DNA from: Sipunculus nudus
Lineage: Eukaryota; Annelida; Sipuncula; Golfingiida; Sipunculidae
Direction of reading: 5' to 3'
Assembly (NCBI GenBank): GCA_026874595.1
Contig: CM049314.1
Coordinates: forward strand, 68,754,300 to 68,818,299
DNA: 64,000 nucleotides
Shown: positions 3,756-30,845 of the stretch, piece by piece
Layout of the letters: each line of letters begins with the position of its first letter
Position numbering within the stretch: position 1 is the stretch's first letter
Position numbers and translations under genes: made by a program
The notes under the pieces: generated by a model
What the model was told of the DNA's origin: nothing
Databases searched by the model: none
What the model saw: the letters and a program-made list of their open reading frames with translations, nothing else

Positions 3756-3758
<3 letters not shown>

Positions 3759-4280: not shown

Positions 4281-4457
4281 GTGAGTAATGGTTTAACTAT
4301 GCATGTTTAAATAAAATGATAAAGCTTCAAAACGTGAAAACAAGAAGTGACAGGCATTTTGCTCTCGAATTACCTGATAAATTAGGTGTTCACAATATTT
4401 TGTATTTCGTTTGAAAATTAATATTTAAATTATGATGTTTCTTTATGAATTTCTTAG

Positions 4458-4501
4458 GCGAACCAATTATCACCAGGTTTTATTTCTACGACCGATACAG
4501 G
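4458..4501 (+). pseudogene. copy 1 exon (44 nt), end of family-specific domain
   Basis: Phase 1 to 0, encoding SEPIITRFYFYDRYR when joined to the previous exon. Exons of exactly 44 nt occur at the same place in copy 2 (21286-21329, GQPVITRF) and copy 3 (58568-58611, GGPLVTSF). Confidence 0.75.
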
Positions 4502-4923
4502 GTACAACCTCTTTTACAAAATACATTTTAATATCGTTTATGGATGCTTAATTTCGTAGCATATGTAGATGATAACATTTAATATTGCTACCGAATGTGG
4601 TGTGGCATGAAAACATAAGGTAATTTAAGTAAGAACAGGAACATTACAAATATATGGAGAAAGGTAATAAATACGTTGGTACAACAATTAAAACTGTAAA
4701 AGTTTCCATTTTCTCTTATATATTATAAAGTTATAAATTATCAGTGGTCTAAAGTTAGTCGTAGTAGCTAAATCATAGAGAAAACCGTGCATTTGAGAAC
4801 ATGATTCCAAAAGTATCCTTTCAGTGCAGAATTGCTTGTACCACATATCAACCATTGACCTATTTGCTAAAACGATCATTGATTTCCTGATATATGTGTG
4901 TGTATATCTGTATAATGATATAG

Positions 4924-5043
4924 GATCCGAATGTTTGTGTATTGGATGGCACGGGTGGAATTTTGCGGTCAGCGGAATGAGGAGCCACGGAGGCCATGGT
5001 CAGCTTTATAAATGATGATGTATCCATAGATTTACATTGTATG
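4924..5043 (+). pseudogene. copy 1 ankyrin-like exon with in-frame TGA
   Basis: A 120-nt phase 0-0 exon reads DPNVCVLDGTGGILRSAE, then TGA, then GATEAMVSF. Copy 3 has TGT (Cys) at the stop position in its own 120-nt exon (59036-59155). The pattern resembles a divergent first ankyrin repeat. The stop is a clear inactivating lesion unless the exon is skipped, which would keep the frame. Confidence 0.75.
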
Positions 5044-5788
5044 GTATGATCTATTATGACGTTTTCAAAATATTCTACTGAGTGCTTAGTTGTTAACATG
5101 TTTCTTCTCTACCTACAAAATGTTAAACCCAGGTAAAGCATAGTGAACCATTCTAGACCAGAGGAGAAGACCGATTAGTATCATCTGAAGCCTAAGTTTA
5201 TATAAACTGATTTAAATAACCAAAAGTAACACCATCAAATTATATAACAGAATAGTTATTTTACATTATATCATTTATTACAAAAAGCAAAATGTCAGTT
5301 AAAGGTCTTCCAGAAAATTAGAGTAGATTAAATTTAATTTCAAACTGATGGATAATGCTGTGATTGGCTTTCTGTTGCTAAGATATCACATTCGCAATAT
5401 TTGAATTGGGAAAGATATGAATAAATAAATAAAATCCTTCTTAATTAGACGCTAAATCTGCACAGATGAGCAGTACTTTTTCTTTAACCTTAATGGCATC
5501 AGACGTATATTGACCGGGACATCAAATATAAGCATACATTTAATGTACCTCAAATTATTTCAAAGATTTGCATGCTTATTAGAGATTTTTTTATAAAATT
5601 GATATTAAAGATATAATAAGTTACTTTATGGTAAATCACATTGCGAAAGGTTTGCAAAACACTGAATTGAAAAATGCTTATATTTAACCTCACAAATATT
5701 AAGCCAAACGCGTTATGCCGTGTTTGTTTTGACAAATGGAAAACACAGCATGGCCTAGATCCTACATCAACTGTCCTTCATTTTGCAG
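5044..5788. other. intron of copy 1
   Basis: No exon or recognisable element was found. The last 60 bases are similar to the copy 3 intron before 59791 (both contain ATGRCCTAGATCCT). Confidence 0.6.
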
Positions 5789-5887
5789 ACTGGTGAAACC
5801 GCATTGATACTGGCGGCCGCAAATGGTCACAAGGAAACGGTGTCAAAGTTGCTAGACTTAGGAGCTGATGCTTGTCGTACAGATCAA
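5789..5887 (+). pseudogene. copy 1 ankyrin repeat exon
   Basis: A 99-nt phase 0-0 exon coding one canonical 33-residue ankyrin repeat, TGETALILAAANGHKETVSK followed by LLDLGAD. Acceptor TTTTGCAG, donor GTAGGT. Copy 3 counterpart is 59791-59889. Confidence 0.85.
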
Positions 5888-5967
5888 GTAGGTTTACATG
5901 TAGGGATAAATTAAGGTAGGGAGCTTTCTGTAAAAGTAAAGAAAAGCTCAAAAGTCATGCATTTTTT

Positions 5968-8900: not shown

Positions 8901-9752
8901 TCTGTTAACAGGGCACGAATCTTCACGACTAGACCTAGAATCATTTTTTTTACATGTTGGGAGGCCCATGAAAAGTCTCCTTGGAAACCTGAAATTAGGT
9001 CTCTGTTACCCATATCTTCCGAGCTATGGGTCTTAGAAGTACCTCACAGAATAACTAAAAATTGATACAAAAGATCTAGTACCTGAACAACTATTGCATT
9101 TATCACCCTGATTCTTTGCATGCATATTCATCATGGAGTGTTTCATCAGTTCTTGAAGACTGGAGGCACCACCTAAATTTAAAAAAAAATGATAACACAT
9201 TTTTTTCTCTATTATGAAACATTCAAAGATGCGGTCATCCCTTAGCTGTGCTCAAATTGTAACCATTAGTCCTAGAATCTTCAAACTTGACTTCCAGGGA
9301 GATGTGTGAAAAGTCTCTTGATGGAAACATGTATTAAAGTCTCTGTTACCCATATTTTCTTAGCTATGGGGCTTATAATCACCCCTCAGAATAACTGAAA
9401 ATTTGATACCAAAGTAGGGCACAAATCATAACCATCGGCCCAGAATCTTCTAATTTGACATCCTCAAAAGTTCTCCCCAGAAACCTGAAATTGGGTCACA
9501 GTAACCTATATTCTCAGAGTTTTGGGGTATGTTTGAGCACCCAAGAAATAATGCAAAATACACACAAATTGCCAGATTCCTAATGAAAGGTTGGTTGGAT
9601 TGTCATCAAATTTGTTGTGATTTTTGGTCTTGATGTACTTAAGCCAATATGCATGAACAATGATGCCACCTATCTTAATTAGTTGTCTGTGCAATGACAT
9701 ATTATCAACATGTCAGTCGGCTGAGCGTCATGACCCATGGGTCACTTGTTAT
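5968..9752 (+). repeat. interspersed element with about ten 335-bp tandem units
   Basis: The head AGCTCAGCTATCTGTAAGTC can fold on itself and is followed by a GTCCGTCGTCC microsatellite. About ten diverged units of about 335 bp follow, marked by GGGCACAAATCGTAACC (near 6030, 6358, 6890, 7222, 7563, 7898, 8234, 8584, 8912, 9250), a shared TTTGATACAAAAGCTCAAGT and CAGACTGGTGGCGCCACCTG. The tail is a perfect 14-nt palindrome (9731-9744) followed by CACTTGTT. The layout (subterminal hairpin, proto-microsatellite, tandem core, 3' hairpin) recalls Helentron-associated non-autonomous elements of molluscs. The class is inferred. Confidence 0.7.
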
Positions 9753-9880
9753 AAATAAGATCTTACCTATATCAATACTATATGTGATGTCTTGCCTGTT
9801 CGTTTTATATACAGCTGAAGCAGACCAAGGTTAGTCTCTTATATTGTTTGCTATATTGAACAGTATTTTCGTTTTTGCAG

Positions 9881-9976
9881 AAAAGAAAAACAGCATTAAT
9901 GCATGCAGCGGCAAACGGCCACAAAGGCACAGTTTCAACGCTCCTGAGAGGAACAGATGTCAAGTGTACCAAAGAC
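9881..9976 (+). pseudogene. copy 1 ankyrin repeat exon
   Basis: A 96-nt phase 0-0 exon, KRKTALMHAAANGHKGTVST then LLRGTDVKC. It is one codon shorter than the copy 3 exon (61651-61749, LLRGGVDIRC), so the repeat is slightly shortened but open. The flanks are TTTTTGCAG and GTGAGA. Confidence 0.85.
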
Positions 9977-10857
9977 GTGAGATTTATAATGATAACAGTT
10001 AAATGGTATTTTTCCAGGTGCGCGTATATGCGTATGTACGTTAAAATCGCTCATATAATTTTGTAACTGGTGAGTTTTCATGTATCCGATTATGCCTGAA
10101 AGCAGCCACATGAGCAATTTTTAGGCATAGGGTCTGCCTGAACTCAAAGACCAAGGGTAAAATTATGTCATTTAACCCTCTTTGTGGAAGTCCTGCTCGA
10201 GTCACTGAACAAATATATCAATTCACGCATATACACATATAAGCGCACATGGAACATACTTATTTTTCAAGCATATACGCACATACGCATAAACACGCAC
10301 ATGGAAACACACCTTTATTTGGTTTTTATTGTCGTTACATAACTGTGTAATTACCAAGAACCATAATGATCCTTCTTATGACGTCTTCATCATTAATTAC
10401 GTTTAAAAACACTATTGCATCTTAGTGCTATCTTGTGTTAATTGTTATGGCATTAAAACTCAATAATTCCTTTGTATATTGATAAACATCTGAGGGGATT
10501 GGGTACGAAAGTGCATAATGTTTCACTGCTATAGTTGAAATATGATTAAAGCTAACATTGTATCGAAAGGATATATATCTTGAACTTCTAAATCGTTTAC
10601 CGTGATAATCCAGATGGCGCTGAGAAGCAAAGCCCGGTAGTTATAGTAAGAAACAATTATGTTGTTCAAAGGTGCCCTACTGACGAATCATACACACTCA
10701 GCAGTTTATACAAACAATGTGAGAACAACCTTGAGTCGCATGCAGACTTAACGGTGCACAATTGGCACAACCTTTCATTTATTTGCAGAACGCTACTGTT
10801 TATTCTGACGTGTTTGAGCTTAAACTTCAATGTAAAAATTAGTATATTATATGGCAG
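9977..10857. other. intron of copy 1
   Basis: No exon seen. Around 10205-10320 there is low-complexity ACGCATA/ACACGCAC sequence. The 3' part is collinear with the copy 3 intron before 62276 (shared GAGTCGCATG). Confidence 0.5.
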
Positions 10858-10959
10858 GGCGATCTGGAGAAAGCAATGGTTTTTGCGGTCAGAGGCAAGC
10901 ATCTTGCGGTATTACAAGAAATCGTAGAACACACTAAAGAAACACGCAGGGACATCGTG
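10858..10959 (+). pseudogene. copy 1 ankyrin repeat exon
   Basis: A 102-nt phase 0-0 exon, GDLEKAMVFAVRGKHLAVLQ then EIVEHTKE. Counterparts are 62276-62377 (copy 3) and 22880-22975 (copy 2). Acceptor ATGGCAG, donor GTACGT. Confidence 0.85.
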
Positions 10960-11029
10960 GTACGTACCATTCACACGCGGGTCAGGTTTCATTTCACCAT
11001 AGACAAACACCTCTCTATTCGTTCCAGTT

Positions 11030-11147
11030 TACAACCTGACGAAGAAGCCTATGCGCTTCGAAAGCTCATGTGTTAATAAACGAGTTTGTCGATTGAAAAC
11101 GCGTCACTCTTTCTCTCTACCTACACTACTACTACAGACTAATATGT
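11030..11147 (+). mobile_element. Penelope-like terminal fragment
   Basis: A short fragment matches the terminal arm of the element at 13645-17190: CTGACGA, a GAAGC/GCTTC hairpin, GAAAGCTC, GTGTTAATAAAC, GCGTCACT and CTACAGACTAA. It lies in the intron just upstream of the copy 1 exon whose acceptor is lost and has no equivalent in copy 3. Confidence 0.6.
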
Positions 11148-11201
11148 AAGTGTGAGCGTAGTATTTGTAACATCTTTGTTCTATTTGATATTATCTTTCT
11201 G

Positions 11202-11306
11202 GAAACATTCGACAAGCCATTAAACATAGCACGTGAGACGGGTCAAGAAAAAATGCTACAGGTGTTCCTAAGCGTTGAAGAATTTTTACGTGCTGTTAGG
11301 CCCGAG
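11202..11306 (+). pseudogene. copy 1 ankyrin repeat exon without its acceptor
   Basis: The frame reads ETFDKPLNIARETGQEKMLQ then VFLSVEEFLRAV, matching 62599-62703 in copy 3. There the exon follows CTCTACAG; here it follows TTTCTG, so the AG is missing. An in-exon AG (GACAAG at 11211-11216) would give a shorter 90-nt exon, still in phase. Skipping would also keep the frame. Confidence 0.7.
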
Positions 11307-11476
11307 GTATAAAATATTCTTTTTCCTAAAGGAATGTTCAATATTGATATACTGTCCTTTGGACGTTGTGCATCAATCCAAGTACTAACTCCATATTATT
11401 AAACATCCCTGGTAAATCAATGTTTAGCATTATATAGAATATATAATTTATTTTCATATGTGTCTGCTTATTTCAG

Positions 11477-11575
11477 CTTGGCCGTTTCCTCTTTGATGCT
11501 GTTGGGCTTCAACACGATGGTGCTGCTGCACAGTTCCTTGAACATGGCGCGGATCCAAATGTTGTATCCAGTTTG
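11477..11575 (+). pseudogene. copy 1 ankyrin repeat exon
   Basis: A 99-nt phase 0-0 exon, LGRFLFDAVGLQHDGAAAQF then LEHGADPNVV. Acceptor TTTCAG, donor GTAAGT. The copy 3 exon 62982-63080 is almost identical. Confidence 0.85.
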
Positions 11576-11701
11576 GTAAGTGCACTTTTACGTATCCATC
11601 ATATACAGACACTCAAAGCTACAAGGGTAATATATTTTAATGTGTTTCCTCATTGTTGTAATATAATCTATTTTAACTTATGCTTATGCATTTATTACCA
11701 G

Positions 11702-11806
11702 GGTGGTTTCACGCCGCTCATGGTCGCAGTAGCCTTGGATAATATGGAGAGTGTACAAATATTACTTGACCACGGAGCAAACCCCGAAATTACAGCAAAA
11801 AATCAG
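11702..11806 (+). pseudogene. copy 1 ankyrin repeat exon
   Basis: A 105-nt phase 0-0 exon, GGFTPLMVAVALDNMESVQI then LLDHGANPEITAKNQ, a canonical ankyrin repeat. Acceptor TTACCAG, donor GTATAT. Copy 3 counterpart is 63210-63314 and copy 2 counterpart 23741-23845. Confidence 0.88.
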
Positions 11807-13078
11807 GTATATCATTTATCTTTATTCAAGATTATTCGTTGACAAATTTAATACCTGATTATATTTTATTCATGATTATTCCTTAAAAAGCGGGGTTTAA
11901 ACTTTTAATTGCACATTACACATATTAAATAAAACCATTGAACATCTGCTTAATAATTAGGAATAATTGAAATAAGATTAAGGCATTAACCTCAAGAATA
12001 TATATTAACATATTTGACTGATCAGACAGAAATACATGAGACGTAGTGTAAAAATATACAGTGTATCAGAGATGAAAGATAACTGAGACAAGTAGTAAAC
12101 ATTTAAGGTTTTCTTCCTCTAACTGTTTAATTGTGCGTCCTGTGGACTCAATATTTACAATATGCTAATAAAAAGGATATAGCTAAATAATGACTGCATT
12201 TAGAATTAGCTGCAGACATCTAAGTCTTCAAATCCAGAAATATTAGTTTTAACACACATTGCGACGCACGGAGTAGATAATATCCATTTCCATGAAGACG
12301 TTGTGCAATAGAAACGCCCAGGAAACCTAAATATGTCACATGCTGAGTAAACGCCAGCCTAACTTGCCAGTTGAATCTTACTCACTAAACAAACCTTTAA
12401 ATCATGACTTCAAACAAATAGGCACAACTGTGTATATTATGTATAAATAGAGACTATTGCTGCTAATAGTAATACTCAGTCGAACCACGTTCCAAAATTT
12501 GATGATATTTGCTCTCTACCCATGACAAATTTTGGAATTACATACTCCTTTTATACCGACGTTTATTAGGTACATCCAAAGCAAGATTTTATTCATACAT
12601 AAAACCGCCCAAACAGGTTTTCTGAAAGTTTGGTCTACATATGAGGTTGCAGTCAGAACTACAAACTAATCTAACAAAGTCCGTCATAAGCACCATTTGG
12701 TTCGGAAACGGCCAGTGTACAAGTGTTCACGGCGGCGGTCATAGGCATTGGTTGGTATGAAAAAACTGCAATGTTTCGGTCTATATTTTACAAATGACAG
12801 AAAAAAACACTAGCAAGCTGTGAATACATCTTCTGCAAACTCCAGACTATCACAAACATAAGCATAACGTTTAGAATTAATACTAATAATTATGGCGCGG
12901 AGGAATAAGACAGGGTCTATGTCATTTGGAAAAAAGGGCAGAGATATCGGTGCAGAGATCCCGTAGGATAAAGTATTTAATCTAACATTCTTGATTGCTT
13001 TAAGAACCAGGAATGGAGCCAGTTACCTCGCCATCGTATTTTTATATCTATTTTATAACTTTTCCGTTGTATTTGTAG
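11807..13078. other. intron of copy 1
   Basis: No exon or known element. Several blocks align with the copy 3 intron at the right edge of the window (63315-64000): TTGACTGATCAGA, CATGAAGACGTTGTGCA and CTTCAAACAAA. This shows that the copy 1/copy 3 duplication included introns. Confidence 0.6.
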
Positions 13079-13165
13079 CACACGGCACTGCTCCAAGCCG
13101 CAAAGTTAGGAAGGCAGGATATCATGAACCTCATGCTGCGGTACAGCAGACAGCCGGGCGGTAAG
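13079..13165 (+). pseudogene. copy 1 ankyrin repeat exon
   Basis: The frame HTALLQAAKLGRQDIMNLML then RYSRQPGGK matches the copy 2 exon at 24525-24620 (ETALLGASRLGFSDIVDLLL). Two overlapping donors are possible (GTAAGG at 13161, GTAGGA at 13166); only the second keeps phase 0. The exon has 87 nt. Confidence 0.75.
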
Positions 13166-13319: not shown

Positions 13320-13393
13320 CATGAAAAACATTTGTCATTCGTTTGACCCGCGACTTCTAATAAGGTGAAATTCTTTTTGACCTCCTATCACAG

Positions 13394-13548
13394 GTGTTAG
13401 CGGGGATAAACTCTGAAAGTGAAACTGGTGAATCGCACACCGGTAAGTTTTCTAAAACAATGTTATTTGGTAACTGAACTAAATTTGATTCGTTTGGATA
13501 TACAAACTGTTTTACCATCACAGGTAGAGTATGGTCTACCTGGAGACG
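13394..13548 (+). pseudogene. two candidate short exons at the 3' end of copy 1
   Basis: Two intervals have good splice contexts: 13394-13442 (after TATCACAG, before GTAAGT; VLAGINSESETGESHT) and 13524-13548 (after CATCACAG, before GTAAGC). The peptides resemble nothing recognised and have no partner in copy 2, so they may be chance. Copy 1 shows no SOCS exon before the insertion at 13645. Confidence 0.35.
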
Positions 13549-17260: not shown

Positions 17261-17552
17261 ATGTATACAGAATACAAGATAATTTTGGAAACAAATGGCG
17301 GAACCTGCCCTGCTACTGTCATCAAAGCATGCAAAAGGCATGTCCAGTTTATCAGCCTTACATATGGGGACCTTGGTAAATCCGTCGTTGAAGCTGGAGT
17401 TATAACAGAAAAAGAAAAACAGCAGCTGTACCGTAAGGATGGAATTGCGTTGTGTAATCATCTCTGTAAAAAGGGCAAACACATCTTTGACAAGTTTGTA
17501 AGATGTCTGGAGAAGGAACAGATGCAGGAAGCTGCGATATTGCAAAAAGCAG
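17261..17552 (+). CDS. copy 2 exon 1: complete CARD
   Basis: It starts at ATG 17261 and ends in phase 1. The frame holds VVEAGVITEKEKQQLYRKDG and LCNHLCKKGKHIFDKFVRCL, helices 2-5 of a CARD, all in one exon, whereas the second CARD is split. The donor GTTGAT is weak. Reading through gives TGA two codons later, so a stand-alone CARD-only product is an alternative. The ATG lies only 60 bp beyond the Penelope-like insertion. Confidence 0.7.
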
Positions 17553-20500
17553 GTTGATATTTGTTTAACACAAAAATCAGGAGGCATATTAACCATTTTT
17601 GTATAAATCCTATTTTCGCATATAGAATAACAGTTGTTTAGATTTTGGTCTAATGTGAAGAAACGAGTTTGATTATGTAAAATTTCATATTATGTACCTA
17701 CCTAACTCTAACCATTGCGTGAAGGATGGGTCGTAGGACCGTATGATATCTTTGGTGTACAGCACACAACAATTCATGTCTGTTTGTGCTGTTATGCCTT
17801 CTGACTGAAAGTCAACTGAGCAAAAGCAATAGTACTTTGTTTGTCGTCCGTCCGTCCATCTGACCTTTTAGCCGTCAGACCTTTCGTTATCAAAGCACAA
17901 ATCGTAAACCCTGGACCTAGAAATACTGATTGACCATCAAGGAGGCCGACACAAATCTCCTCGAAAACCTGAAATTAGGTCACTTCGACCTCATCCTCAG
18001 AGTTATGTGGCTAGTTTATGCACCACAGAATAATTGAATGAATTGCCATGATTTTTGCTTAGCGTATTTAAAAGGGAAAATTTTATCAACTGCTTAAGAC
18101 TGGGGTCACCCTCTATATTTATTCTATTTTTAACACATTTTACCTCTGTTTTTGACACTGCCAAATTACCCCGATGGTTTTAGTTTATAAACAGTAATTT
18201 CATCAAGTGTCCTAATACCTGATGTGTTAGTAATGTATCCATCGCCATACCACTACCCAAATGGGTACACCTTGTTTTCAGTCTGATTGCTTCCCCTAGT
18301 CCCCGTCTTAAGGATATTACTTTTGAAGCACTGTATATTTCCCCTGAAATTTGAAACGCAAGTTTTTTTCCGCCAAATTTTTGAGGAATTTGAAAAACTG
18401 GTGACCTTCATTTTGATATTCAAGGTCAAATCAATTTATGTAAATCCCAATGCTTTTGGATATATTTTTCCATAAATTTCGTATATTTTTTTAGCCGGGT
18501 GCTTGTTGAAGTTCGAAATATGGTAACTTTAACCATGAAATTAAAGGTCAAATCAGTAAAAATTTTGTAAACCCTTAATGTTCTTAAAAGGCTGTCCAAA
18601 CTCAAATGCCACACCTTTCATCTTTCAGCCTCCCTACCAGCTAATCGGGATGAAACCATAATGATTCACGAGGTCAAGGGTCAAAAACCCAGCGTTCACT
18701 TCTATAGAAAGATCGTTTAATGTGTATATGCCATGCTTTTGATCTCAAACCTTCAATCCCTCACGCATGGTTACGTTTTAATAAGAGAAAAATAAATATT
18801 AACTTTGACGTCAAAAGATCAAGGTCATTAAACTCTCCTTTTCTGCAAGCTCCTGGCTACATTTGAAGCCAATCTTTAATCGAAAACCTTACATCCTGCC
18901 CATTTGCCTAAAATAATTACAAAGAACTTCTTTTTATACTCCAAGGGCTTTTTCTAGGCAATGGTTTATATAATAACCAGGAGACTAGTCTTGTAACATG
19001 TTCATACTGAATATATTACAGTTCCTTTTTTTAATAATGAGGCAGATGGTCTCATTTATCATGTACGCAGCATACCGTCCATTGCCTCTCGACAAAATGA
19101 ATATCCGATATCTAAAAACCTTGCTAATTAAATTTCTATCCAATGTTTTTTTTCAGTAGGGAGAGGCGTGAGGCGCTTGAGACTGCATACTGACAAAATA
19201 TTGGGCTTCGAAGAATTATTAAACAGTTCACTTGAATTCACTCAAACTTTAGTTACAAATCTTGAGAAAGCTCAAGTTGATGTTGATAATAAAATAAAAG
19301 CTCGCCTGGTAAGAACAAAAAATTGAATTATCTTTTCTCAGTATCAATCTTGTGACATGAATTCGTAATAAATACATAATTCTCTTAGGTTAACATTTAT
19401 ATTAAGCAGCCTACGGGTTATTAATGATAATTTAACACATTTAACATTTATCTAAATAAAATTCAATTTAAAACTTGAAAATATTTTGCAACTGTTAACT
19501 TCAGACGAACAGATCGGCACTCATTGACATAATGCCATTGGCCTAGCCATAGCTGTTACCGTTTCACTGCCTGAAACTTAGGTGAAAATGGCACACATAT
19601 GAAACGATATCCATGTAATTTAGAATTCACTGCCTCGTATATATGATAAACAAAGAAAAACATTAGTTCTCAATTTTCTTTTTTTGTAGCCATATCAGAA
19701 AAGGGTGAAATATTCGATGTTTGTTAACAGTTTATTGGAAACAGACGAGGAATCATTCGAGGAGTTTATTCAGTGTCTTCATGATAGCCCAGAACTCGGC
19801 CACAGAGTTATCGCCAAACACCTGAGGCAGTTAGGGAATGGAAGTATAACATATCTTACATATATATATTTGTTTTCATGGGCCATTTTGGCCGCAATCT
19901 TGGAATTTAACCAATATAAAGTAACAATATACTTAGTGTGGCCTGTAGTGATTGCGAACATTTTTGTCGAATTCTTCTAAAGCTGCTGCCTAGCGGCAGG
20001 ACCAGATATATTTTACCTCACACTTTGACATGTTTTCTTGTCATTTAAAGGCGATACGACCAAACCAATAACAGCAGAGGTAAGACATTTCTTACATTCT
20101 CAATATATTTCATTTCTCGGAGAGCATAAATTATTGAAGTGGAAGGAATCAAACATATTTCATTTTTAAATTCAGTATACGTTTATTCAATAACAGTTCA
20201 TTTGCCGTCATCAATATACGCATTTAACTATCAAAACATACTTTTTTTAAGTATCAAATGATACACTTGGGTAATTTGACAGCCTTCGTTTTATATCCGA
20301 TATGCTGCAACGTGAACATCAATGCATTACAAGTCTAAAAAGGTATATGAAACAGGCATATACGAGGGGCAAGGGAAAGACTATCAGTATACGCAGCACA
20401 ACGTACATATTTTGTAAATAAAAGGGGCTGAAAAAACTGCATTTTCGTGCTCAAGTTTTAGAGAAATTTGCTCTCACCCGTAAGGAATAAAATAAAAACA

Positions 20501-23500
20501 GTATCAAGCATGACCACGCTTGTGCCGAACAAACTCTTCATTTTTTTTTTTCATGAAAGTGTCCTACTCATATCGTCGCTGGTGGAATGATTACCGTGCA
20601 TATTCTCTGCTAGGGTCCGTTTAATATTTTACTCTTTATTTTAGATAACATTGAATATTCTTCAAGGCTGTGAAAGAGCATGCAGCGGTGAACAGGAAAA
20701 GCTTCTTGACTTAGAAGAACAGGGTGTATAATTATATTTGCAATATACTGGAAAATCAACCATGCGAACCTGCTGACCGTTCCAACACTAATCAGAGTCC
20801 GGAAAGTCAAACTGAAAACGTCGACCCTCGGGCATACCAGATAATCTGTCTTCTGGAAAATGAGTTCCGCCATTTAATGCCAAAAATGGCACGGGGTTCA
20901 AAGAAGGGGGTATCTTTGCAATGCATGTGCAACAGTTTGAATGACTGCGAGATCTTGCGAATTGGAGCGAAGACAAAATCCCTTTATAATGTTTTGTGTC
21001 AGTGTGTTCTCGTGTGCTGGCCTGATCTGCTAAACCTGTCCTATGTTGAAATAGAAGGAATTTTTGACATCAAAAGCCCCATATTCGGTAACTATTATGT
21101 TTGAGTAAAAGCATTCCGCATTTTTTGTAGATAATTATATTATGTTACCTGCAGAATAAAAAATAGAACAACTTAGTCACACAATCCATTCAAGTTAAAA
21201 CATTGATATATTTACATTATGATAACATTTATTAATATCTTAAATGTCGCATATTTAATAAAAAAAATGTCCGTTTTAATTACAGGGCAACCGGTAATAA
21301 CAAGATTTCAAGTCAATGTGTCACAAAGGGTACATAACTTAGTTTTTCACATAGCTGCAATACTATACGATTTATACATTTAATTCATAAGATATGATCA
21401 TTTTGTTTAATTATTTTCTTACACACAAATATAGGAATTTTATATGTACTCACACGGGGACGTATACATGATGTTTCAAGGAGAATAAAGGGTATTTAAT
21501 GGTTACTGTAATGCTCATTTATTGTAATGGTTATTTTATGAAAATGTAAAAGGAAAAAATCTCGAATGTATTCGGGTACTGTATTTAATTTGCTCCGCTT
21601 ATAAGTGTTCTTGTTCTACATATATATTATACTATAACAGTCAGAGTCGATCATGCATATTTTGTAGCTTCTTTCTATCTTTAAACATGTATCTGGATAT
21701 CAATATCTGCGGTCTTAAAATTTTCTCAAGTTATTTCATGGTACACATTTTGAATTGCTTAGAACAGGAGACCGCTCAGAATAAGTGAAAAGTATATACC
21801 CGTGCCTCTCTCAAAATTTTCATAAAAAATTTAAAGTCATGATTTATGAAAATATCTTTATGGTAGCGTCATAACATGCCCGGAAAAATTCAATTGGCAT
21901 ATATGGCAATGGCAGAAAAAGTGTGAACTGAGTACAGGTCCATAAAATAAAATTAATAAATTGTTTAACATAACTGAAGAGAAACAAACTACAGGCTTCG
22001 GGGGGGGGGGGGGGGGTTAACGATGTACACAGTGTTACTTTTCCGTTCCGAACCGTTAATCCATATTAACATTTTATTAACTGCATATTTAATGCAAGAG
22101 TAGCTTGACGTATATCTTCGATGTTCATTTTATCGTCTAGTTTGCCGGGTTTTTTTTCATGATTTCTTTGCATCAGAATCATTTATATTTTCAGTACATT
22201 AAGACAGCGCTCATGTTTGCAGCTGGAAATGGCCATGACTGGATACTCTCCAGGCTACTGGAACAGGGAGCAAATCTCACAAGTACAGATAACGTGAGCT
22301 TATCTACTGAGTAGTATATAATGGTAAAATTAATACCCCAGGCAAACACATTTGTAAAGGGAGTCCTAAAATAAATTGTCTTCTCACAACACAAGTTTGG
22401 ACCTGGTTCGGTAAACGGAAATGTGTAACATTTGTTAAAACCCTTTTTCATTAATTAATAAGTTGGACTTTTTAAATTATAGTTTTTGAGAATTTCTTTA
22501 TATGCGAAATGTACATCTTTTAGGCAAGGGTATGCCCAATATTCATTCTTTTACTCTATTCCGATATTCGATTTATTCTCACATAGTTTGATTTCTAAAG
22601 GTATTATTCTTGATGCTATATGTTCTCATACCTACAGGACGGAAAGACAGCACTGATGTGTGCAGCTGAAAACGGTAACAAAGCCATAAGTGACTCCCAG
22701 ATTGAATTACCACGCCTTTTCTCTGTGTGTGCTAGAGAGAGAAAGGCACTAACCGCTTCGTGGTGTCAATGGCACTCATAATACAAGGAGAATCCAAGGC
22801 AAAGAGTTATAATATGTATTATATAAAAAGTATTTTGATTTCTAGAAGCAAAGGAAAAATAAAGTTGTTGAAATTTTAGAACAAAACAGCACTTGACTAT
22901 GCAGCCCAGGGAAACCATGTCGATACATTGCGGGAACTCGTGAATCATGTCATAGGGCACCAAATGGACCTTAAAGTAAGTATGACGATTCTGGCAACAA
23001 TTCAGGCGCGGATGTATCATATGAACATACATGATTAAATAAAGCACGCTTCAAAGCTATCGATAGACGTTTATACTAGCCGTATGTAGACATGTCGTTT
23101 TGCCACAAGTGTGAGTGTACTTTGTTTCCATTCGCAGATATTTGACAGTGCTCTTACTGAAGCAAGAACAGCTGGATTCCTAGAAATTGTGAGGCTGTTT
23201 CTGAACATTCAAGAATATTTTCCCTTAATCCGGCATAAGGTACATATGATTTTTAAAATAAAAAAGATCATCGACGATAAGTTTCCATTCCTCTGAATAT
23301 AATGTGGGCCTAGAACATCTAAGATATACATATATTATCGAGAAAACAACATATTCAATGAAAGTCAATAAGAAAAAATTACATTAAAAGAAGAAATTCT
23401 GTTATACCATTCTTCTAAATAAAGAGTTCATCTGAAAATATATTTAATTTTATAGCACATATTCTTTTCATATTGCTTTAGCTGTGCAGTTTCCTGGATG

Positions 23501-26500
23501 ATGCGGTAGCTGCTGGTCATAATGAACTGGTTGCGTTGTACCTTGAGCTTGGAGTTCTTCCTAATTTTAGCAGCTATTCGGTATATACTTTGTTTATTTT
23601 AATTTGCTTGCTATTTGTTCAATATTTACCTATACAGGGCGATTTAGGGCTATTATTTACATGTAATATTAAGCCATTATTTAGTTAATGTTTTGATGTC
23701 CGGTGCAACTTTTGTTTGCCTATTTTTTTTTTATTTGCAGGGAAGGTGTATACCACTTGTATATGCATCAAGTATGGGCGATATGAAATCCGTGAAATTA
23801 CTACTTGAGCATGGAGCCAATCCAAATTTTACGTCTGCATATGGGGTAAAACGTTATCCGATATTCTTAATCGGAAGCTTTTTAAAATCTGATCTTTTCA
23901 GGTTTATTATACTAGAAATTACATGTATATATATATACACATACTTAGATATGTGATTTAGTGCTTATAATTCCAGGTTGATTTCAACCAGGTTTATTTT
24001 TATTAACATTTGTATTCATAATATTAGTAAGATTTTTATCCAAATATGACGAATATTGAAGAATCAAGAACTATTTGTATTCTCTATTCAAATCAAGAAC
24101 TATTTGTTTTATCTTTCAATTTACCATTGTGCAACCTAGAATTTCATTGAAGTCTCAGATTACCCTGAATTAAATGTTAATATGTGAAAAAAATCAACGT
24201 CTAATGCTTTTCATGGATGACAACCTGCATTCATCAAACCTAGGAACCATCAGAATACACCAACAGCTCCTCTGCCTATGATAAAAATAATTTGAAATTA
24301 AAGATCATACCAGAAAGTTTGTAAATAAGAGTTAATGCAAAGTTTACTGAATGTTTCTTTTGTAAACAGATTTCACAGTCCTGAAGTATCTAGAAATTAC
24401 TACTAAATGAATATTACTCCCCTAAAATTACATTTTTACCATATTTATGTATCATTTGGGTACGAGGTAATGAAAAATATTAATCAATGAATATGCTTTT
24501 CATTACAATTTATACATGTTCCAGGAAACAGCACTACTTGGAGCATCAAGATTAGGCTTCTCTGATATCGTAGACCTGCTTTTGCAGTATAAAGCCTGTA
24601 CCGACACAAGATTCAGCCAGGTAAGATATTTTATTTTAGCGAACGTCAGTTGTAGGATTTAAGCATTTGAAAAGTTAAATCTAGAAAATTAAAATATGAA
24701 ATGGACAAAAGTTCCCTTGAATTATCCTTGGAAACCAAATTTAGGTTACGTAACGTAAATTTTGTTAACTAGCACGATTCCTAGCCCCCGCTACGTTAGA
24801 TATATGTGTTCTAACCTGCGAAACAAGGAAGGATCCTTTGGGGATATGTACGAAATAATGTCATTGTTCAAGCATATATCCCTGTTATCAGTTTAATATC
24901 CCTAGTAGTTTTAAGAGAAATGCTATTACCAGCTCTCATAGAAGTCAGACACAGTTTTGAAATTTAACATCCGTCGGTCAAGACAAATTCATGAACGAGG
25001 TTTGCTTTCTACCTAAAGATTATATAAATGTATATTATAATATACTGAGGCACTGAGCTCGGACGTCCCCTTATTCTTGATTGTTAGCCCCGTGTGTAGG
25101 GACCTGTGGATTACTGAAAAGCGGCCAGGACCTTGATATAATAAGGGAAGAACAAAACCAATCAAGATCCAATAAGGACACGACGGTGAGCGGGGACATG
25201 GCCGATTCTCTATGCTGACAGAGTTTGAAGCCTCAACGGTCCCTGACCTTTAATTGTGATAGGCCCACCAGGGAAACACTTTCAAGGGACCCACCTAAAA
25301 CGGTGAACTAGTGTAGGATATATGATCTTTTTAATGCAGGCTAATTAGTTCTTAACATTTCCAACTCTATCACATTAGAAAATTTAATTAAAATAATTGC
25401 CCACCAGGAGAAAAACCTTGTGCAATAGCTTGTATGCATACTGATCTGAAATTAATATATTAGATGCATAACATCACCCACCACCTACAAACCCCTTACT
25501 CAAAAACTCAAAAATTCCGGCTATACACTTTTGTTCACACTCATAGAGTTATAAAACGGTTTTGCTTTAATTATAATGATAATAATTTGCTCAACCCACA
25601 AACGTGTTTCAATATACAAGTCAACTAATGGCCAACTTATAACATGTACTCAGCTTGGATAGACACTTCTAAACTTTTTTGAATTAATTGATGGATTTTA
25701 AATTTCCTACTAAAAATTTAACTTGTATTTGTTCACAATGTGTCTCAACAATAATGCAACACACTGAACATCATGAACCATATTGGTCATACGCGTCTGT
25801 TATTCAGGATAACAATGTGCAAGTTATAAATAGTTGATCTTCAAGAAAGGCAAGGTATAACACATTATAAAGACATACTATTCTTTTATTTTTTTGAAGA
25901 TGAATGAGCCAGTCTTCGGACCAATCTCTGGAGCCACTTACGAAGGTCACTTAGATACGGTGAAGCTGTTACTAACACATGGACCAAGTCTCGAAGATTT
26001 AGAATGGGTATGACCACATTTAAATTGTATTGTTTGCCAGAGCAAGTTTGAATAATAACCGATATATATATTGTTCTTTTACATGCAGGTAACTGCATAT
26101 AGTTTAAAATATTGTGTGCTTAGTCTCCACGATCTATGGTGCCCACATATAAGAAACCTCTTCTCGTTATGAGAATACAGTATGAATCTCAACTTATAAC
26201 CTTTTGTTTGTTTCATTCTGGCCAGACTGAGTCCCGTATTTTATCATCGTAACAATGGAGTAGCGAGCACCAATGCCTTCCCCAGAAAACCGTATGTTAA
26301 AGGAAAGGTGGTCCTTGACGTAAGCGATTGTTCCAAACTCTCATAATTAGATCTTGATCGTTGAACTGACAAACAGAGTAGTTTATTAAAATGCCCCAGT
26401 TATCCCAGTAGTATCTAGACTATGGTAACTTATCCTCTAGCTGGCGTACGCCATTGTTTCATTCATCCGTTGGCCAGCTACGCCAGTGTGGGAGTAATAG

Positions 26501-27075
26501 TCTTCCGAAAGGCAACTTGTTTCCTAATTTCCAAAGTTTTTTAGCCTGTCCCAAATTTACACCTTCCACTGCATTGTTGTTTTATGTGGATTGGAACTGG
26601 TTTATCGTATATATCATTATCCTCTGATCATGGGACTCGTCGTCTTGTTTGGCCTCGTTTCGGGCAAGTACGTTCCGATCATCCCTGCCTTAATTGACCA
26701 GATTGCATTGGCGTGCTTTTGGGGTTAAAAGACTATGGGCCGTTCTAATTGTATCTTTTGTATAATAATATCAACCAAAAAAGGACATAACTTTGGATAA
26801 CAACTTGGGCTCTGATGAAACAGGAGTGTGTCACTGAGCGTCTGTTATCTTGTGTGTTTTTTTGCCCTTTAAATTTGCCTTTATTTCTAGCAGATTCCTG
26901 AACTATGCATAATTAAATTTACGCCAGGCACTTCAACAACTTCATTTTCTCTTCATTTTTTACTCAATTTAAGTATCTAGAAATTTCAGGACACAACAAT
27001 GCATTTTCACACATTTGCTTTATTTCCTTTACCGGTCACACTGTCATACTGCATTAATGTATACAATTTGCTTCT

Positions 27076-27141
<66 letters not shown>

Positions 27142-30100
27142 TACTTTGAAGAGAATGCTGCCCCTGCTAACAGGATCTGTCAAAAGGCTGCTCACTCCTG
27201 AAATAATAATGCATCCACTAGAAAGATATTTAATCCCTGTAGTATTTCGACGAAAATAACGAAAATGCTGTGGAAAGACGTCAGTAGTTCAGACTTTATA
27301 CCTGATTGATTATTGTAGTTGTATCACGGTTAAATGTGTTCCGTTAAATGACAAAAACATTTAAACTATCATTTGCCTTATTTTTGATCAGGCACTGTAC
27401 GAGTCGTCGGGAACAGGAAATGCAGCCTTTGTGGATACCCTGCTAGCGCATGGGGTTAGCCCTGATGGAGATGGTCAAGTAAGTCATTCAATGGGTTACC
27501 TTCGAACGAGATTGTTATTTACGGTAACTGCCGAAGATTGTTATTTACGGTAACTGCCGCTTTTGATTCTCAGCGGTATGCTGTTTCAAACATTGAACAG
27601 TGTGAGCTTAAAATATCTTAATGTTATTTTTATTTTAGCTGAATTCATATCAAAGCTCAATGCAATAAAACCTCACGTATTCCTTTTGGCAATCCAATTA
27701 AATGAATAAATAAATACACAAAATATATACACAATGCCCATGTTAATGCTTTACTCAAGTATAGTGTGTTTCACGATGGCGCTAAGATGTTACATTTTTG
27801 TTACTCCATTAACAGAAGTTAATAAATCTTATGGTATTTTCTCCGGATAGAATGACAAGATGAAAGATCAAAATAAGTAAAGAGAGTGACACTGGTATCC
27901 GCTTTCGATTATTGCAGGTTTAAGGTTTTATATTTGCCTTAAAAGTACACCATAGGCACAGAAACAGATATGTCAACCTTTTCTATTTACCTTTCCAGAG
28001 AGGTCCTAGATCAATCTGATTTTTTTTTCTGATTCTGCTTTGACCTTATTTATAGAGACGCTGCCCGCTGTTTGCAGCATATGCTAGACATCAAACGAAG
28101 ATTGTGATCAAACTGCTTGAAAGAGGGGCAAACCCGAATACGATCGACGAGGTAATCGTAGATAAAGTTCCCTCAAAAACGTCAGAGGGACATGGTCAAC
28201 ATAGTTATTAGCATGAAGTAGACCACAATAAATTGTAATCACAGTTATAATAATTTTTCATAAAAAAGAAAGCAACATACTTGCTTAAACTGAGTCAGAA
28301 AGTAGGACAGCGATGAATATGTTTGTGCCATCAACCCTTTGTTCGGGTGTAAAGGGTGACTAATTATCTATATTTTTTATTTAACTCCCACTTTTTACAA
28401 AATAAGTTTATTTTTTCAGACATACAAAAGACAATCCAAATAAAATTCTATGTCAACAATGTTTCATTATATGCACACCATAGATCATTTTTTTCCACAG
28501 CAAAGTTATTCTTAAATATCATTTTCTAATTGATTAAACGTCCCAAACATTCCTTATATATTATCAATCGGCTTGTTCCGCACTTCCATCGTATTTGGCT
28601 TGTGGATTGCGTTTACGGTTGGCCGAAGGCCAGTACGAAGACAATACTTAACGAACCGGTCCCTTATATTTTATATAAGCGGCCACGCATAATATGAACA
28701 CAACCCACAATGAATCGACATTTTATTTTCAAAATGAACCAAATGAAACACTCCAACATCGTTCTTAAGCCGGCACCTACACACATTCAGGATGCTAATT
28801 TGTTTGCAGTTTCAATCCTGGGCATTTCGTCACAGATCATAGTGAAATCACACTCCACCTCGTTTTTCTTTCGCATTTGTGGTTAGTTCAGGCATGCTTT
28901 GACTGTAATGGTTAATTACATTTATAGCTCCCGATGTTAAGCAAATTTTTTTTTTATATATGTTATTATTGTGTAATTTTCAGTAAGTAATTCTCCCATG
29001 TACATGAAGGTTTATAATATGTTACCGAGTTGTTTTATTGTTCAATTAGACTAAAGATAGACTCGGTCAGATTTCACAAGTCAGAGTACAAATCAAGGAC
29101 CCTCGAATAAAAGTCCGCGTCCCTAATAAATTTGATTTGAATCCGACTTAGACTAGAGCAGGATTCGAGTCTTTCATTATCGGTCTATAATGTCTTACTC
29201 AGATATAATTGTCTATAATTTCAGAAAGGGGAAACACTGTTATTCCGAGCATTACGCAATAACAACGTAGGACTAATAATTTTACTGATGAAGTATGGGG
29301 CTAGCTGTGAAGTAGCCAACAAGGTAAATGTTTACACATCAGATGTTTATCTTTGTGAGTAATGGTCGTTTTCTGAAGTTATTTAGTGATTTCCCTGTTT
29401 TCTAACATATTTATAAAATCACAAAGCGATGTCGCCATACACACCATCTGATCATAAGATTAATATTATATCCTTCCTACTTACAAATTCAATAAATAGT
29501 ATATATTGCAAAGTGTATATTGAAGAAAGTATATATTGAATCATATCACATTTCTTATAATATGTGTATATTCTGATACAGTTCGTGTATTTTTTTATTC
29601 ACTCTGCACATCGACTTACTATCTCCAAATCAACTGTCTAATAAGTCGTTTTGTGTAAGTCCCATCGCCCACCTGTGACTTTTTACTATTACTTGTTGCG
29701 AGTACGAGAAAATTACCAAAGGAGAAGAAAAAATTGAAAGAAAACAAAAACAAGTTTTAAATAACACGATTTGTGAGGTTGCGCCCTACAGCTGCCAGGT
29801 GACCTGTGCGGTATTTTTATGTTTTGGAACATGAATATCTTCGAGTGCGAGTTTAATTTCAGTAGTATACAGGAGTAATTGGTGTTTAACGACATTTTGC
29901 AAATACTAACATATATTTAAACATAATACACTGTAATTCATGTATATTTAACATACCTGGTAGGGAAATGGGTCCATTTCAATTTTAGGACGGAGACTTT
30001 CCGCTACATGTTGCTGTCAGATCCAACCATATATATCACGAAACGTTCTGTTCTTTGTTGACCGGGAGGAAAATTATTCAGGTTGGTCTGAAGATTTATC

Positions 30101-30845
30101 TCAAGCTAAAGCTATATGTATCGATACTCCGTAAATCAGTTTAAAAAAAACCCACATTATTTTTTCATAGGAATGGGAGGTCATTTCGTAGGTTTCAGGG
30201 CAAACATGTTTAGTTCATAAAAGATTTATTTTGTTGTAGAAAGGTATGAATTTTCTCTCTATGACGCCTCATGGATCAATCGGTTCTGGTGCACTACTGG
30301 ACGTAACCACAAAGGAAGGCCGGACTCCCCTTGAATTGGCGATGACGTTTAATTGTGAATATAAATTGTATACCTTGATACAACACGGGGCATTAAAAAG
30401 GCACATAATTGAACTTCCCAAAGGACCACCAATAAGTGTTTTGCCCACAGTTGAGTGGCTTCACACGTCTTTGCTAGACCTCTGTAATTTAAACTTACAA
30501 AAATTTGTTAAAATCTTACACGAAGCCGGATGTTGCACACACGGGGGCCGGACTGATGCGGCATCAAGGGATGAGGATTCTTCTCGAAGATATTATAATC
30601 CCTACTTTTATGGGGAGGGTGCATACTCATGGCTGGATTTTCAACGATTTAAAGTACGAAGTCTACAGCTACTCTGTCGTCAGACCATTCGTGAAACACT
30701 TCAGAAAGTTTCAGGCGGACGAAGTATTTTCTACAGAGTGAGAAAACTACAGATCCACAGATGCCTACAAGATCAGATTCTCTTCAGGCATGTAATTCCT
30801 AAAAAAGTGTGGTCTGACGTCACTATCGACTATCAGCCAAAATAA
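17261..30845 (+). CDS. CARD-CARD-ankyrin-SOCS box protein, copy 2 (whole gene, spliced)
   Basis: Proposed coding exons: 17261-17552, 19157-19308, 19690-19843, 20051-20079, 20715-21087, 21286-21329, 22195-22293, 22880-22975, 23138-23239, 23482-23580, 23741-23845, 24525-24620, 25900-26007, 27392-27478, 28056-28151, 29225-29323, 29989-30081 and 30240-30845. They sum to 909 codons with every phase matching. The protein would have two CARDs (homotypic death-fold adaptors), a family-specific domain, 11-12 ankyrin repeats for target binding, and a C-terminal SOCS box that in known proteins recruits Elongin B/C and Cullin 5. This suggests a cytoplasmic ubiquitin-ligase receptor tied to CARD signalling (inference). 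Two splice sites differ from the paralogues but keep phase. No vertebrate ASB protein known to me carries a CARD. Start codon and first-exon donor are the least certain parts. Confidence 0.72.
17553..19156. other. intron 1 of copy 2, with repeat fragment
   Basis: A single degraded copy of the 335-bp-unit element lies at about 17806-18250 (TCGTCCGTCCGTCC, GCACAAATCGTAAACCCTGG). Further on, AAGGTCAA words recur (18424, 18544, 18670, 18822), probably an old decayed repeat. No exon was seen. Confidence 0.55.
19157..19308 (+). CDS. copy 2 exon 2: first half of second CARD
   Basis: 152 nt, phase 1 to 0, the same length and phases as the copy 3 exon 44851-45002. The frame contains GFEELLNSSLEFTQTLVTNL and KAQVDVDNKIKARL. 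Acceptor TTTTTTTCAG, donor GTAAGA. Confidence 0.75.
19690..19843 (+). CDS. copy 2 exon 3: second half of second CARD
   Basis: The frame YSMFVNSLLETDEESFEEFI then QCLHDSPELGHRVIAKHL is a textbook CARD helix 5-6 segment. Copies 1 and 3 end at TTAG|GTAA. Here that site reads TTAGGGAA, so the GT is gone; the next GT (GAA|GTATAA) is 9 nt downstream and keeps phase 1, adding three residues. Confidence 0.75.
20051..20079 (+). CDS. copy 2 exon 4: 29-nt mini-exon
   Basis: A linker exon, phase 1 to 0, DTTKPITAE after the junction codon. Mini-exons of exactly 29 nt occur after each CARD unit in copies 1 and 3, which supports this small call. Confidence 0.65.
20080..20714. other. intron 4 of copy 2
   Basis: No element recognised. 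Near its end the ancestral-type acceptor TTTTAG (20639-20644) is still present, but using it leads to TAA at 20729. The acceptor CTTCTTGACTTAG at 20714 restores the frame. Confidence 0.5.
20715..21087 (+). CDS. copy 2 exon 5: family-specific domain
   Basis: The frame contains FRHLMPKMARGSKKGVSL, MCNSLNDCEILRIGAKTKSL and CQCVLVCWPDLLNL. The spacing of LMPK, CN-x-[IL]-[DN]-DCE-x-LRI-x-AKTK and QCV-x-x-CWPD is the same in copies 1 and 3. I do not recognise the domain. The conserved Cys/Trp suggest a compact fold. Start at 20715 is chosen because it alone gives phase 0 in and phase 1 out; the homologous start is 20645. Confidence 0.7.
21286..21329 (+). CDS. copy 2 exon 6 (44 nt)
   Basis: Phase 1 to 0, GQPVITRFQVNVSQR. 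Its length is conserved in all three copies. Acceptor TTACAG, donor GTACAT. Confidence 0.75.
21330..22194. other. intron 6 of copy 2
   Basis: Holds a 17-base G run (22000-22016). Copies 1 and 3 have an extra 120-nt ankyrin-like exon at this place; no equivalent was found here. Confidence 0.55.
22195..22293 (+). CDS. copy 2 ankyrin repeat exon
   Basis: A 99-nt phase 0-0 exon, YIKTALMFAAGNGHDWILSR then LLEQGANLTSTDN. Acceptor ATTTTCAG, donor GTGAGC. Confidence 0.85.
22638..22690 (+). pseudogene. remnant of an ankyrin exon in copy 2
   Basis: After CCTACAG the frame DGKTALMCAAENGNKAI is the first half of an ankyrin repeat equivalent to 9881-9976. The second half (LL-x-x-GA) has been replaced by unrelated sequence with no proper donor. 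If included it shifts or ends the frame; skipping it leaves the gene open. Confidence 0.7.
22880..22975 (+). CDS. copy 2 ankyrin repeat exon
   Basis: 96 nt, phase 0-0: NKTALDYAAQGNHVDTLREL then VNHVIGHQMDLK. Equivalent to 10858-10959 in copy 1. Acceptor AATTTTAG, donor GTAAGT. Confidence 0.85.
23138..23239 (+). CDS. copy 2 ankyrin repeat exon
   Basis: 102 nt, phase 0-0: IFDSALTEARTAGFLEIVRL then FLNIQEYFPLI. It corresponds to the repeat ending VEEFLRAV in copy 1. Acceptor TTCGCAG, donor GTACAT. Confidence 0.83.
23482..23580 (+). CDS. copy 2 ankyrin repeat exon
   Basis: 99 nt, phase 0-0: LCSFLDDAVAAGHNELVALY then LELGVLPNFSSYS. Equivalent to 11477-11575. Acceptor GCTTTAG, donor GTATAT. Confidence 0.83.
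23741..23845 (+). CDS. copy 2 ankyrin repeat exon
   Basis: 105 nt, phase 0-0: GRCIPLVYASSMGDMKSVKL then LLEHGANPNFTSAYG, a strong ankyrin repeat. Acceptor TATTTGCAG, donor GTAAAA. Confidence 0.87.
24525..24620 (+). CDS. copy 2 ankyrin repeat exon
   Basis: 96 nt, phase 0-0: ETALLGASRLGFSDIVDLLL then QYKACTDTRFSQ. Equivalent to 13079-13165 in copy 1. Acceptor GTTCCAG, donor GTAAGA. Confidence 0.87.
24621..25899. other. intron of copy 2
   Basis: No exon found. A segment of higher GC at about 25050-25330 looks like an inserted repeat of unknown family (GAGCTCGGACGTCCCC, CCACCAGGGAAACAC). Confidence 0.45.
25900..26007 (+). CDS. copy 2 ankyrin repeat exon
   Basis: 108 nt, phase 0-0: MNEPVFGPISGATYEGHLDT then VKLLLTHGPSLEDLEW. 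The acceptor is TTTTTTGAAG, with AAG less usual than CAG. Donor GTATGA. Confidence 0.8.
26008..27391. other. intron of copy 2
   Basis: AT-rich, no exon recognised. Contains a long (AT)n tract at 27079-27138. Confidence 0.5.
27079..27138. repeat. (AT)n microsatellite
   Basis: About 30 uninterrupted AT units. Confidence 0.95.
27392..27478 (+). CDS. copy 2 ankyrin repeat exon (short)
   Basis: 87 nt, phase 0-0: ALYESSGTGNAAFVDTLLAH then GVSPDGDGQ. A shortened repeat that keeps the LLAHG signature. Acceptor TTTGATCAG, donor GTAAGT. Confidence 0.8.
28056..28151 (+). CDS. copy 2 ankyrin repeat exon
   Basis: 96 nt, phase 0-0: RRCPLFAAYARHQTKIVIKL then LERGANPNTIDE. Acceptor TTTATAG, donor GTAATC. 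Confidence 0.87.
28152..29224. other. intron of copy 2
   Basis: No exon seen. 29040-29180 carries GACT/AGTCC-rich phrases (CGAGTCTTTC, AGACTCGGTC) like those at 35080-35130 and 35520-35590, probably fragments of one old repeat. Confidence 0.45.
29225..29323 (+). CDS. copy 2 ankyrin repeat exon
   Basis: 99 nt, phase 0-0: KGETLLFRALRNNNVGLIIL then LMKYGASCEVANK. Acceptor AATTTCAG, donor GTAAAT. Confidence 0.87.
29989..30081 (+). CDS. copy 2 ankyrin repeat exon
   Basis: 93 nt, phase 0-0: DGDFPLHVAVRSNHIYHETF then CSLLTGRKIIQ. Acceptor AATTTTAG, donor GTTGGT (weak). Confidence 0.78.
30240..30845 (+). CDS. copy 2 last exon: ankyrin repeats and SOCS box
   Basis: The exon enters in phase 0 after TTGTTGTAG and codes 201 residues to TAA at 30843-30845. 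It contains a last ankyrin repeat (TTKEGRTPLELAMTF ... LIQHGA), a helical segment (WLHTSLLDLCNLNLQKFVKI), then a SOCS box: BC box SLQLLCRQTI (30660-30689), fitting [ST]-L-x-x-x-C-x-x-x-[IVL], and a Cul5-box-like KLQIHRCLQDQIL (30744-30782). The usual LP-x-P is LQIH here, so Cullin 5 binding is less sure than Elongin binding. The layout matches the C-terminus of ankyrin-SOCS (ASB) proteins. Confidence 0.85.
   Translation, partial: KGMNFLSMTPHGSIGSGALLDVTTKEGRTPLELAMTFNCEYKLYTLIQHGALKRHIIELPKGPPISVLPTVEWLHTSLLDLCNLNLQKFVKILHEAGCCTHGGRTDAASRDEDSSRRYYNPYFYGEGAYSWLDFQRFKVRSLQLLCRQTIRETLQKVSGGRSIFYRVRKLQIHRCLQDQILFRHVIPKKVWSDVTIDYQPK

Follow-up and report, generated by a model that had tools for sequence, protein, structure and literature searches.

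Analysis of a 64,000-nucleotide stretch of the Sipunculus nudus genome (C9:68754300-68818299, forward strand; hereafter the window) indicates that the gene predicted in it belongs to a small tandem family, whose members would combine two death/immune signalling domains, an ankyrin stack and a ubiquitin-ligase docking tail. Five paralogues were found, all on one chromosome (C9): four, A to D, lie in tandem, C being the copy in the window, and the fifth, E, lies about 0.24 Mb off on the opposite strand. The intact copies have the order CARD-CARD-linker-ankyrin (11-12 exons)-SOCS, and judging from their sequences the product is most likely a substrate receptor of a Cullin-5 RING ligase that is clustered by its CARDs; we give this reading a probability of roughly 0.6. 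An earlier note, made from the letters of the window, had described the gene as death-fold input joined to a ubiquitin-ligase adaptor. That interpretation is now partly supported: the anatomy fits, two neighbours of the window copy (A and B) look intact, and between them no part measured is under stronger constraint than the SOCS box.

Evidence for one gene in five copies

The whole genome (1.43 Gb, 153 contigs) was searched with the protein encoded by the last exon, which returned 14 matches: five strong places, all on C9, and nine weaker ones restricted to the SOCS part. The strong places are as follows.

C9:68656815, + strand, last-exon match of copy A
C9:68730852, + strand, last-exon match of copy B
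window 30240..30845, + strand, last exon of copy C, the window copy
C9:68838382, + strand, last-exon match of copy D
C9:68368107, - strand, last-exon match of copy E

The CARD1 exon matched the genome five times, each time upstream of one of these places and on the same strand. The linker exon gave 11 matches, comprising the five main copies, five places upstream of the main copies, and one marginal, distant place on the same contig. The order CARD1, then linker, then SOCS exon is kept in all five paralogues, as is the strand. Because the matches of the three exons pair by copy, the CARD and SOCS exons of the five copies have been inherited jointly.

The exon boundaries come from DNA alignments among the copies and were placed at conserved AG and GT dinucleotides, whose presence is thus partly by construction; the independent part of the test consists of the phases and of a frame that stays open without stops. 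Copy B gave a model of 20 exons (including an uncertain upstream exon, e0) and 979 codons including the stop; its junctions carry AG and GT, the phases agree, and no stop interrupts the frame. Copy A gave 19 exons and 953 codons including the stop, with one GC donor and without ankyrin exon 8. The phases agree only when both conserved mini exons, of 29 and 44 nucleotides, are included. Since A and B read through and the pairing of exons is five out of five, the alternative in which the CARD and SOCS exons belong to separate neighbouring genes was rejected. The comparison therefore supports the CARD-CARD-ankyrin-SOCS architecture as real and as that of one gene, as the earlier note had proposed. 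No other CARD upstream of a SOCS box on the same strand within 100 kb was seen when the genome-wide lists were compared by eye, the CARD list being incomplete (150 of 650 candidates scored) and having missed the array itself.

The model of copy C comprises 18 exons with no stop codon within them. Counted from the split codon at 17270 it encodes 906 residues, and with the ATG at 17261 as the start, 909. Its features are given below in window coordinates; ankyrin exons 1 and 3 to 11 were found by both the ankyrin profile and the copy alignment.

17261..17263, + strand, ATG start proposed earlier (five-copy DNA alignment; A, B and C share this ATG, D and E lack it)
17271..17552, + strand, CARD1 exon (open from 17261 if the ATG there is the start; donor GT aligned in A, B, C and E, not in D)
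19157..19308, + strand, CARD2a, exon for the first half of CARD2
19690..19843, + strand, CARD2b, exon for the second half of CARD2 (conserved donor position after 19834)
20051..20079, + strand, 29-nucleotide mini exon (aligned with splice sites in A to D)
20715..21087, + strand, linker exon, a domain without a Pfam name (exon start in A and B about 74 nucleotides further upstream)
21286..21329, + strand, 44-nucleotide mini exon (splice sites in A to D)
22195..22293, + strand, ankyrin exon 1
22638..22740 (end approximate), + strand, ankyrin exon 2, disrupted in C (copy alignment)
22880..22975, + strand, ankyrin exon 3
23138..23239, + strand, ankyrin exon 4
23482..23580, + strand, ankyrin exon 5
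23741..23845, + strand, ankyrin exon 6
24525..24620, + strand, ankyrin exon 7
25900..26007, + strand, ankyrin exon 8 (copy A shows no splice sites for it)
27392..27478, + strand, ankyrin exon 9
28056..28151, + strand, ankyrin exon 10
29225..29323, + strand, ankyrin exon 11
29989..30081, + strand, ankyrin exon 12 (missed by the ankyrin profile; found by similarity among the copies)
30240..30845, + strand, last exon: ankyrin-like start, variable stretch, SOCS box and stop codon
30654..30773, + strand, SOCS box (Pfam SOCS_box and copy alignment)
30660-30689, + strand, BC box SLQLLCRQTI
30747-30767, + strand, Cul5-box-like LQIHRCL (His in C; Pro in A, B, D and E)

Domain assignments

The presence of CARDs is carried by a comparison of profiles. 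With regard to the Pfam model (PF00619, curated cut-off 23.9 bits), the tandem segment of copy B scored 26.0 bits, above the cut-off, and that of copy C 19.1 bits, below it. A reference profile was built from 15 other CARDs of the same genome and compared by hhalign with profiles of both segments, the CARD1 profile resting on five copies and the CARD2 profile on four (D omitted), with the pieces of E joined by eye. CARD1 reached a score of 44.4 (probability 95.4%, 61 columns) and CARD2 a score of 35.7 (probability 90.5%, 62 columns), the maxima among column-shuffled controls (40 each) being 15.6 and 16.9, respectively. As the scores far exceed the shuffled maxima, chance is not a plausible account of either match, and the two N-terminal CARDs proposed earlier (17270-17554, and 19157-19308 together with 19690-19834/19843) hold up.

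The predicted ankyrin repeats are beyond doubt. They stand in tandem N-terminal to the SOCS box, with Ank_2 scores of 216.6 bits in B and 142.9 bits in C, and the 11-12 ankyrin exons of the earlier note were recovered between 22195 and 30081 in C, exon 2 being disrupted. The SOCS_box model (PF07525, curated cut-off 23.5 bits) was exceeded in four of the five copies (A 30.5, B 27.5, D 36.7 and E 25.0 bits); copy C scored 22.9 bits as a 74-residue piece and 19.7 bits in the whole protein. A proline is the mark of a Cul5 box, and this residue is kept in A, B, D and E. With regard to the last exon of the window copy, the earlier proposal is thus borne out in the SOCS box at 30654-30773 and in the BC box, but C falls just under the Pfam cut-off and carries a histidine in place of the Cul5-box proline. 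A Pfam match to SOCS_box does exist in the last exon, where the lack of any such hit had been named beforehand as telling against the proposal. The other outcome named there, that the CARD exons and the ankyrin-SOCS exons belong to separate genes, finds no support in the five-of-five pairing of CARD and SOCS exons. Taken together, the Pfam search returned Ank strongly, SOCS_box in all copies save C, which lay slightly under, and, among the pieces scanned, CARD over its cut-off only in the tandem segment of B.

The exon between the CARDs and the ankyrin repeats encodes a conserved linker domain of about 100 residues (DDCExLRIAAKTK...CWPD). No named Pfam domain was matched by it, the best score being 12.3 bits, and a profile search of the PDB returned nothing usable. 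The possibility that it is a third CARD was discarded, as the hhalign probability was below 1% in three comparisons. Within the genome it was found only in the array, save for one marginal match at E 0.26.

A separate SOCS box of 49.1 bits lies at C9:68343592-68343708 on the - strand, about 24 kb from copy E. It is absent from the matches of the last-exon query and probably belongs to another gene.

Selection on the copies

Ratios of nonsynonymous to synonymous substitution rates (dN/dS) were computed for the pairs among A, B and C, with ankyrin exon 2 of C and exon 8 of A absent, codons aligned to gaps excluded, and D and E unused. Between A and B the ratio was 0.49 over 940 codons, 0.20 in the last 64 codons, which hold the SOCS box, and 0.78 in the rest of the last exon. 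Between B and C it was 0.55 overall, 0.25 in the SOCS part and 0.61 before it. Intron identity was 0.61-0.72, for introns under 3 kb. These values indicate that the copies evolve as proteins, the SOCS end being held fast in two of the three pairs. The constraint on the SOCS box in these pairs and the faster evolution of the preceding part of the last exon (dN/dS 0.61-0.78) suggest that the enzymatic end stays fixed while the recognition side varies.

Evidence to the contrary and the state of the window copy

Several observations weigh against this reading of the family. In copy D the CARD, linker and early ankyrin parts are broken, the later half being intact. The Pfam CARD model gave 21.8 bits for full-length B, below the cut-off, and 13.5 bits for CARD2 of B as a single piece, and left CARD1 and CARD2 of A unmatched. 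Scanning the whole genome with the Pfam CARD model (150 of 650 candidates scored, 139 matches) listed none of the array exons, and the corresponding SOCS scan (150 of 152 candidates scored, 61 matches, E <= 0.001) listed A, B and D and omitted C and E. Profile searches of the PDB with the tandem CARD and with the SOCS segment returned no CARD or SOCS relative. In the pair A-C the SOCS part was scarcely more constrained than the whole (dN/dS 0.53 vs 0.55 overall, with 0.70 before SOCS), on few changes. Lastly, copy C carries four lesions. The CARD2b donor reads GG, the other four copies having GT at that position; a deletion has removed 2 nucleotides from the linker exon relative to A and B; ankyrin exon 2 contains an insertion of about 32 bp and has lost its conserved donor; and the Cul5-like box has His for Pro, in C alone among the five copies.

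The lesions of copy C make it appear a slightly damaged and weak member of the family, and they are also the grounds for regarding it as a decaying pseudogene, in which case the working genes would be only A, B and perhaps E. The loss of the CARD2b donor, the deletion in the linker exon, the disruption of ankyrin exon 2 and the substitution in the Cul5-like box all point that way. However, each of them can be bypassed in frame. An in-frame substitute GT is used 9 nucleotides downstream of the lost CARD2b donor (after 19843). Because 2 nucleotides are missing, a substitute acceptor is needed for the linker exon, and the frame is kept only via the one before 20715, which scores -4.4 vs a median of 8.2. 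Ankyrin exon 2 was left out of the model because of its insertion and lost donor. The 18 exons used are free of stop codons, and the B-C ratios given above, overall and in the SOCS part, speak against decay. On balance, the chance that copy C is a pseudogene falls a little short of even. Its product may be reduced or absent; expression with small changes and decay are both conceivable. The length of the 909-codon frame in the earlier note matches that of our model read from the ATG at 17261, which depends on two substitute splice sites and one skipped exon.

CARD1 of copy E matches as two pieces about 200 nucleotides apart, and an in-frame ATG lies a few codons upstream of the aligned ATG place.

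Upstream half modules

A half module, made up of CARD2-like, linker and ankyrin exons, lies upstream of the main copy on the same strand in all five cases. No SOCS exon was found in the half modules by the genome SOCS_box scan or the last-exon search. Two of the half modules fall in the window, together with a candidate upstream exon.

875..13144, + strand, half module C' (CARD2-like end 875-967, CARD1-like piece 1466-1522, linker 4007-4237)
5795, 9887, 11489, 11708 and 13082, + strand, ankyrin exons of C'
13361..13442, + strand, e0, candidate small upstream exon (alignment to B; in B its phase fits CARD1)
46588..63308, + strand, half module D' of the next paralogue (CARD2-like 46588-46712, CARD1-like 53792)
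58134-58397, + strand, linker of D', with an in-frame TAA stop
59797, 61657, 62291, 62994 and 63216, + strand, ankyrin exons of D'

Half and main modules could in principle form one longer coding unit, CARD-CARD-linker-ankyrin-CARD-CARD-linker-ankyrin-SOCS. In its favour, all five main copies have a half module upstream on their own strand, and in A and B a truncated last ankyrin exon of the half module, e0 and CARD1 follow one another within about 0.6 kb, with fitting phases (0 to 0, 0 to 1, 1). The splice sites it would require are nevertheless poor: against a median of 8.2 for the others, the e0 acceptor scores 1.65 in A and -0.81 in B, and the CARD1 acceptor ranges from -4.69 to 3.52 across the five copies. 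In addition, e0 has lost its acceptor and both ATGs in C and its donor in D and was not found in E. At the CARD1 exon, A, B and C each have an in-frame ATG, and E has one close by. We consider the longer unit unlikely, though deserving of some weight, and lean towards main copies and half modules being separate units.

Copy E contains an extra ankyrin-like exon (GMLRAAECGAS...) between the linker and ankyrin exon 1, at 28159-28242 in E2 coordinates (reverse strand of C9:68362001-68412000). Half modules B' and E' have this exon too.

Mobile elements

A LINE-like (long interspersed nuclear element-like) retrotransposon occupies 48735-53641 of the window on the - strand. Six of the nine open reading frames listed there were scanned, giving a reverse transcriptase of 143.8 bits, an endonuclease of 37.0 bits and an L1 RBD-like match of 21.7 bits, slightly under its cut-off of 22.4.

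Outside the window, the genome contains a near-identical, high-copy element with CARD and BIR domains, for example at C5:178001-188000. Of ten open reading frames in that region, seven were scanned; five match CARD, three of them over the cut-off (27.5, 33.6 and 30.8 bits), and one CARD frame also matches RING (3087-3740, 42.0 bits). The BIR frame, at 7435-7944, scored 77.3 bits, and as a query it found at least 52 near-full-length places, spread over 16 contigs and 97-100% identical (150 of 399 candidates scored). A second BIR set, of about 40% identity, lies about 118-124 kb away in the five pairs compared (for example C5:67699 and 185435, C2:6874914 and 6997605, and C17:7526967 and 7649257). 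Because of this spacing, the element is probably longer than 120 kb; it resembles a giant mobile element or an endogenous virus. A scan for B-family DNA polymerases gave 9 matches. No BIR place lies within 0.5 Mb of any of them on the same contig, and the scan did not classify the element.

Proposed function

SOCS boxes dock Elongin B/C and Cullin 5, and the SOCS box of these proteins would be expected to do the same. The protein is probably cytosolic. Its ankyrin stack, and possibly its CARDs as well, would hold the target, and the tandem CARDs would cluster the protein or recruit it to other CARD proteins. Ubiquitination would then take place at an assembled death or immune signalling platform. 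The effect could have either sign, and we favour a brake on signalling.

A different outcome would follow if the SOCS box were to act without Cullin 5, as an Elongin-bound scaffold. The protein would then be an adaptor resembling Caiap, a CARD-ankyrin protein of vertebrates, that stabilises an active caspase or a CARD filament and does not degrade it. This would be in keeping with the activity of Caiap, the nearest CARD-ankyrin protein found, which promotes caspase activity (PMC5662874), and with the loss of the Cul5-box proline from the window copy. However, four of the five copies retain the proline and the A-B comparison shows strong constraint on the SOCS box, which makes the scaffold quite improbable beside the Cullin-5 receptor. 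We regard it as very improbable indeed that the array consists of CARD-guided ubiquitin ligases with double CARD-CARD-ankyrin modules that are diversifying to capture the CARD and BIR proteins of the giant mobile or viral element that this genome carries in many copies.

Comparison with known systems

With regard to the preferred reading, that of a CARD-clustered Cullin-5 receptor, the most likely description by analogy is an ASB-like tail on a Caiap-like head. As in the ASB family, an ankyrin stack is followed by a C-terminal SOCS box, with the BC box and then the Cul5-like box in identical order. In contrast to that family, the array proteins add two N-terminal CARDs and a conserved linker domain; we know of no vertebrate ASB protein with a CARD. 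Several ASB proteins are described as interacting with Cul5-Rbx2 as ubiquitin ligases (PMC4812663).

Caiap, which was not named in the earlier note, is the nearest CARD-ankyrin precedent found. Its CARD self-oligomerises and its ankyrin repeats bind active caspase, and the protein is reported from cartilaginous fish to marsupials (PMC5662874). Caiap has one CARD and 16 ankyrin repeats encoded by two exons (PMC5662874). A protein of this type is recognised by a single CARD, 16 ankyrin repeats and no further domain, whereas the array proteins have two CARDs, 12 ankyrin exons in B, and a SOCS box. The term SOCS does not occur in the main text of the Caiap paper (PMC5662874).

A third group for comparison is formed by the death-fold/TRADD-N/ankyrin proteins of sessile marine animals, which likewise join death-like domains to ankyrin repeats and have undergone lineage-specific expansions (PMC8195603). 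Some of the cnidarian ankyrin repeats in that account are related to the substrate-binding region of Fem1, a Cullin E3 component (PMC8195603). These proteins differ from the array in being built on DED and TRADD-N, and SOCS is absent from that text (PMC8195603). Among the literature matches listed, judged by titles and abstract openings, no published CARD-ankyrin-SOCS protein was found. CARDs, as parts of death and immune platforms, and ankyrin-SOCS receptors of Cullin 5 have been known apart and would here be joined in one polypeptide, so that the idea of a ubiquitin ligase aimed at CARD assemblies can be tested directly on this family.

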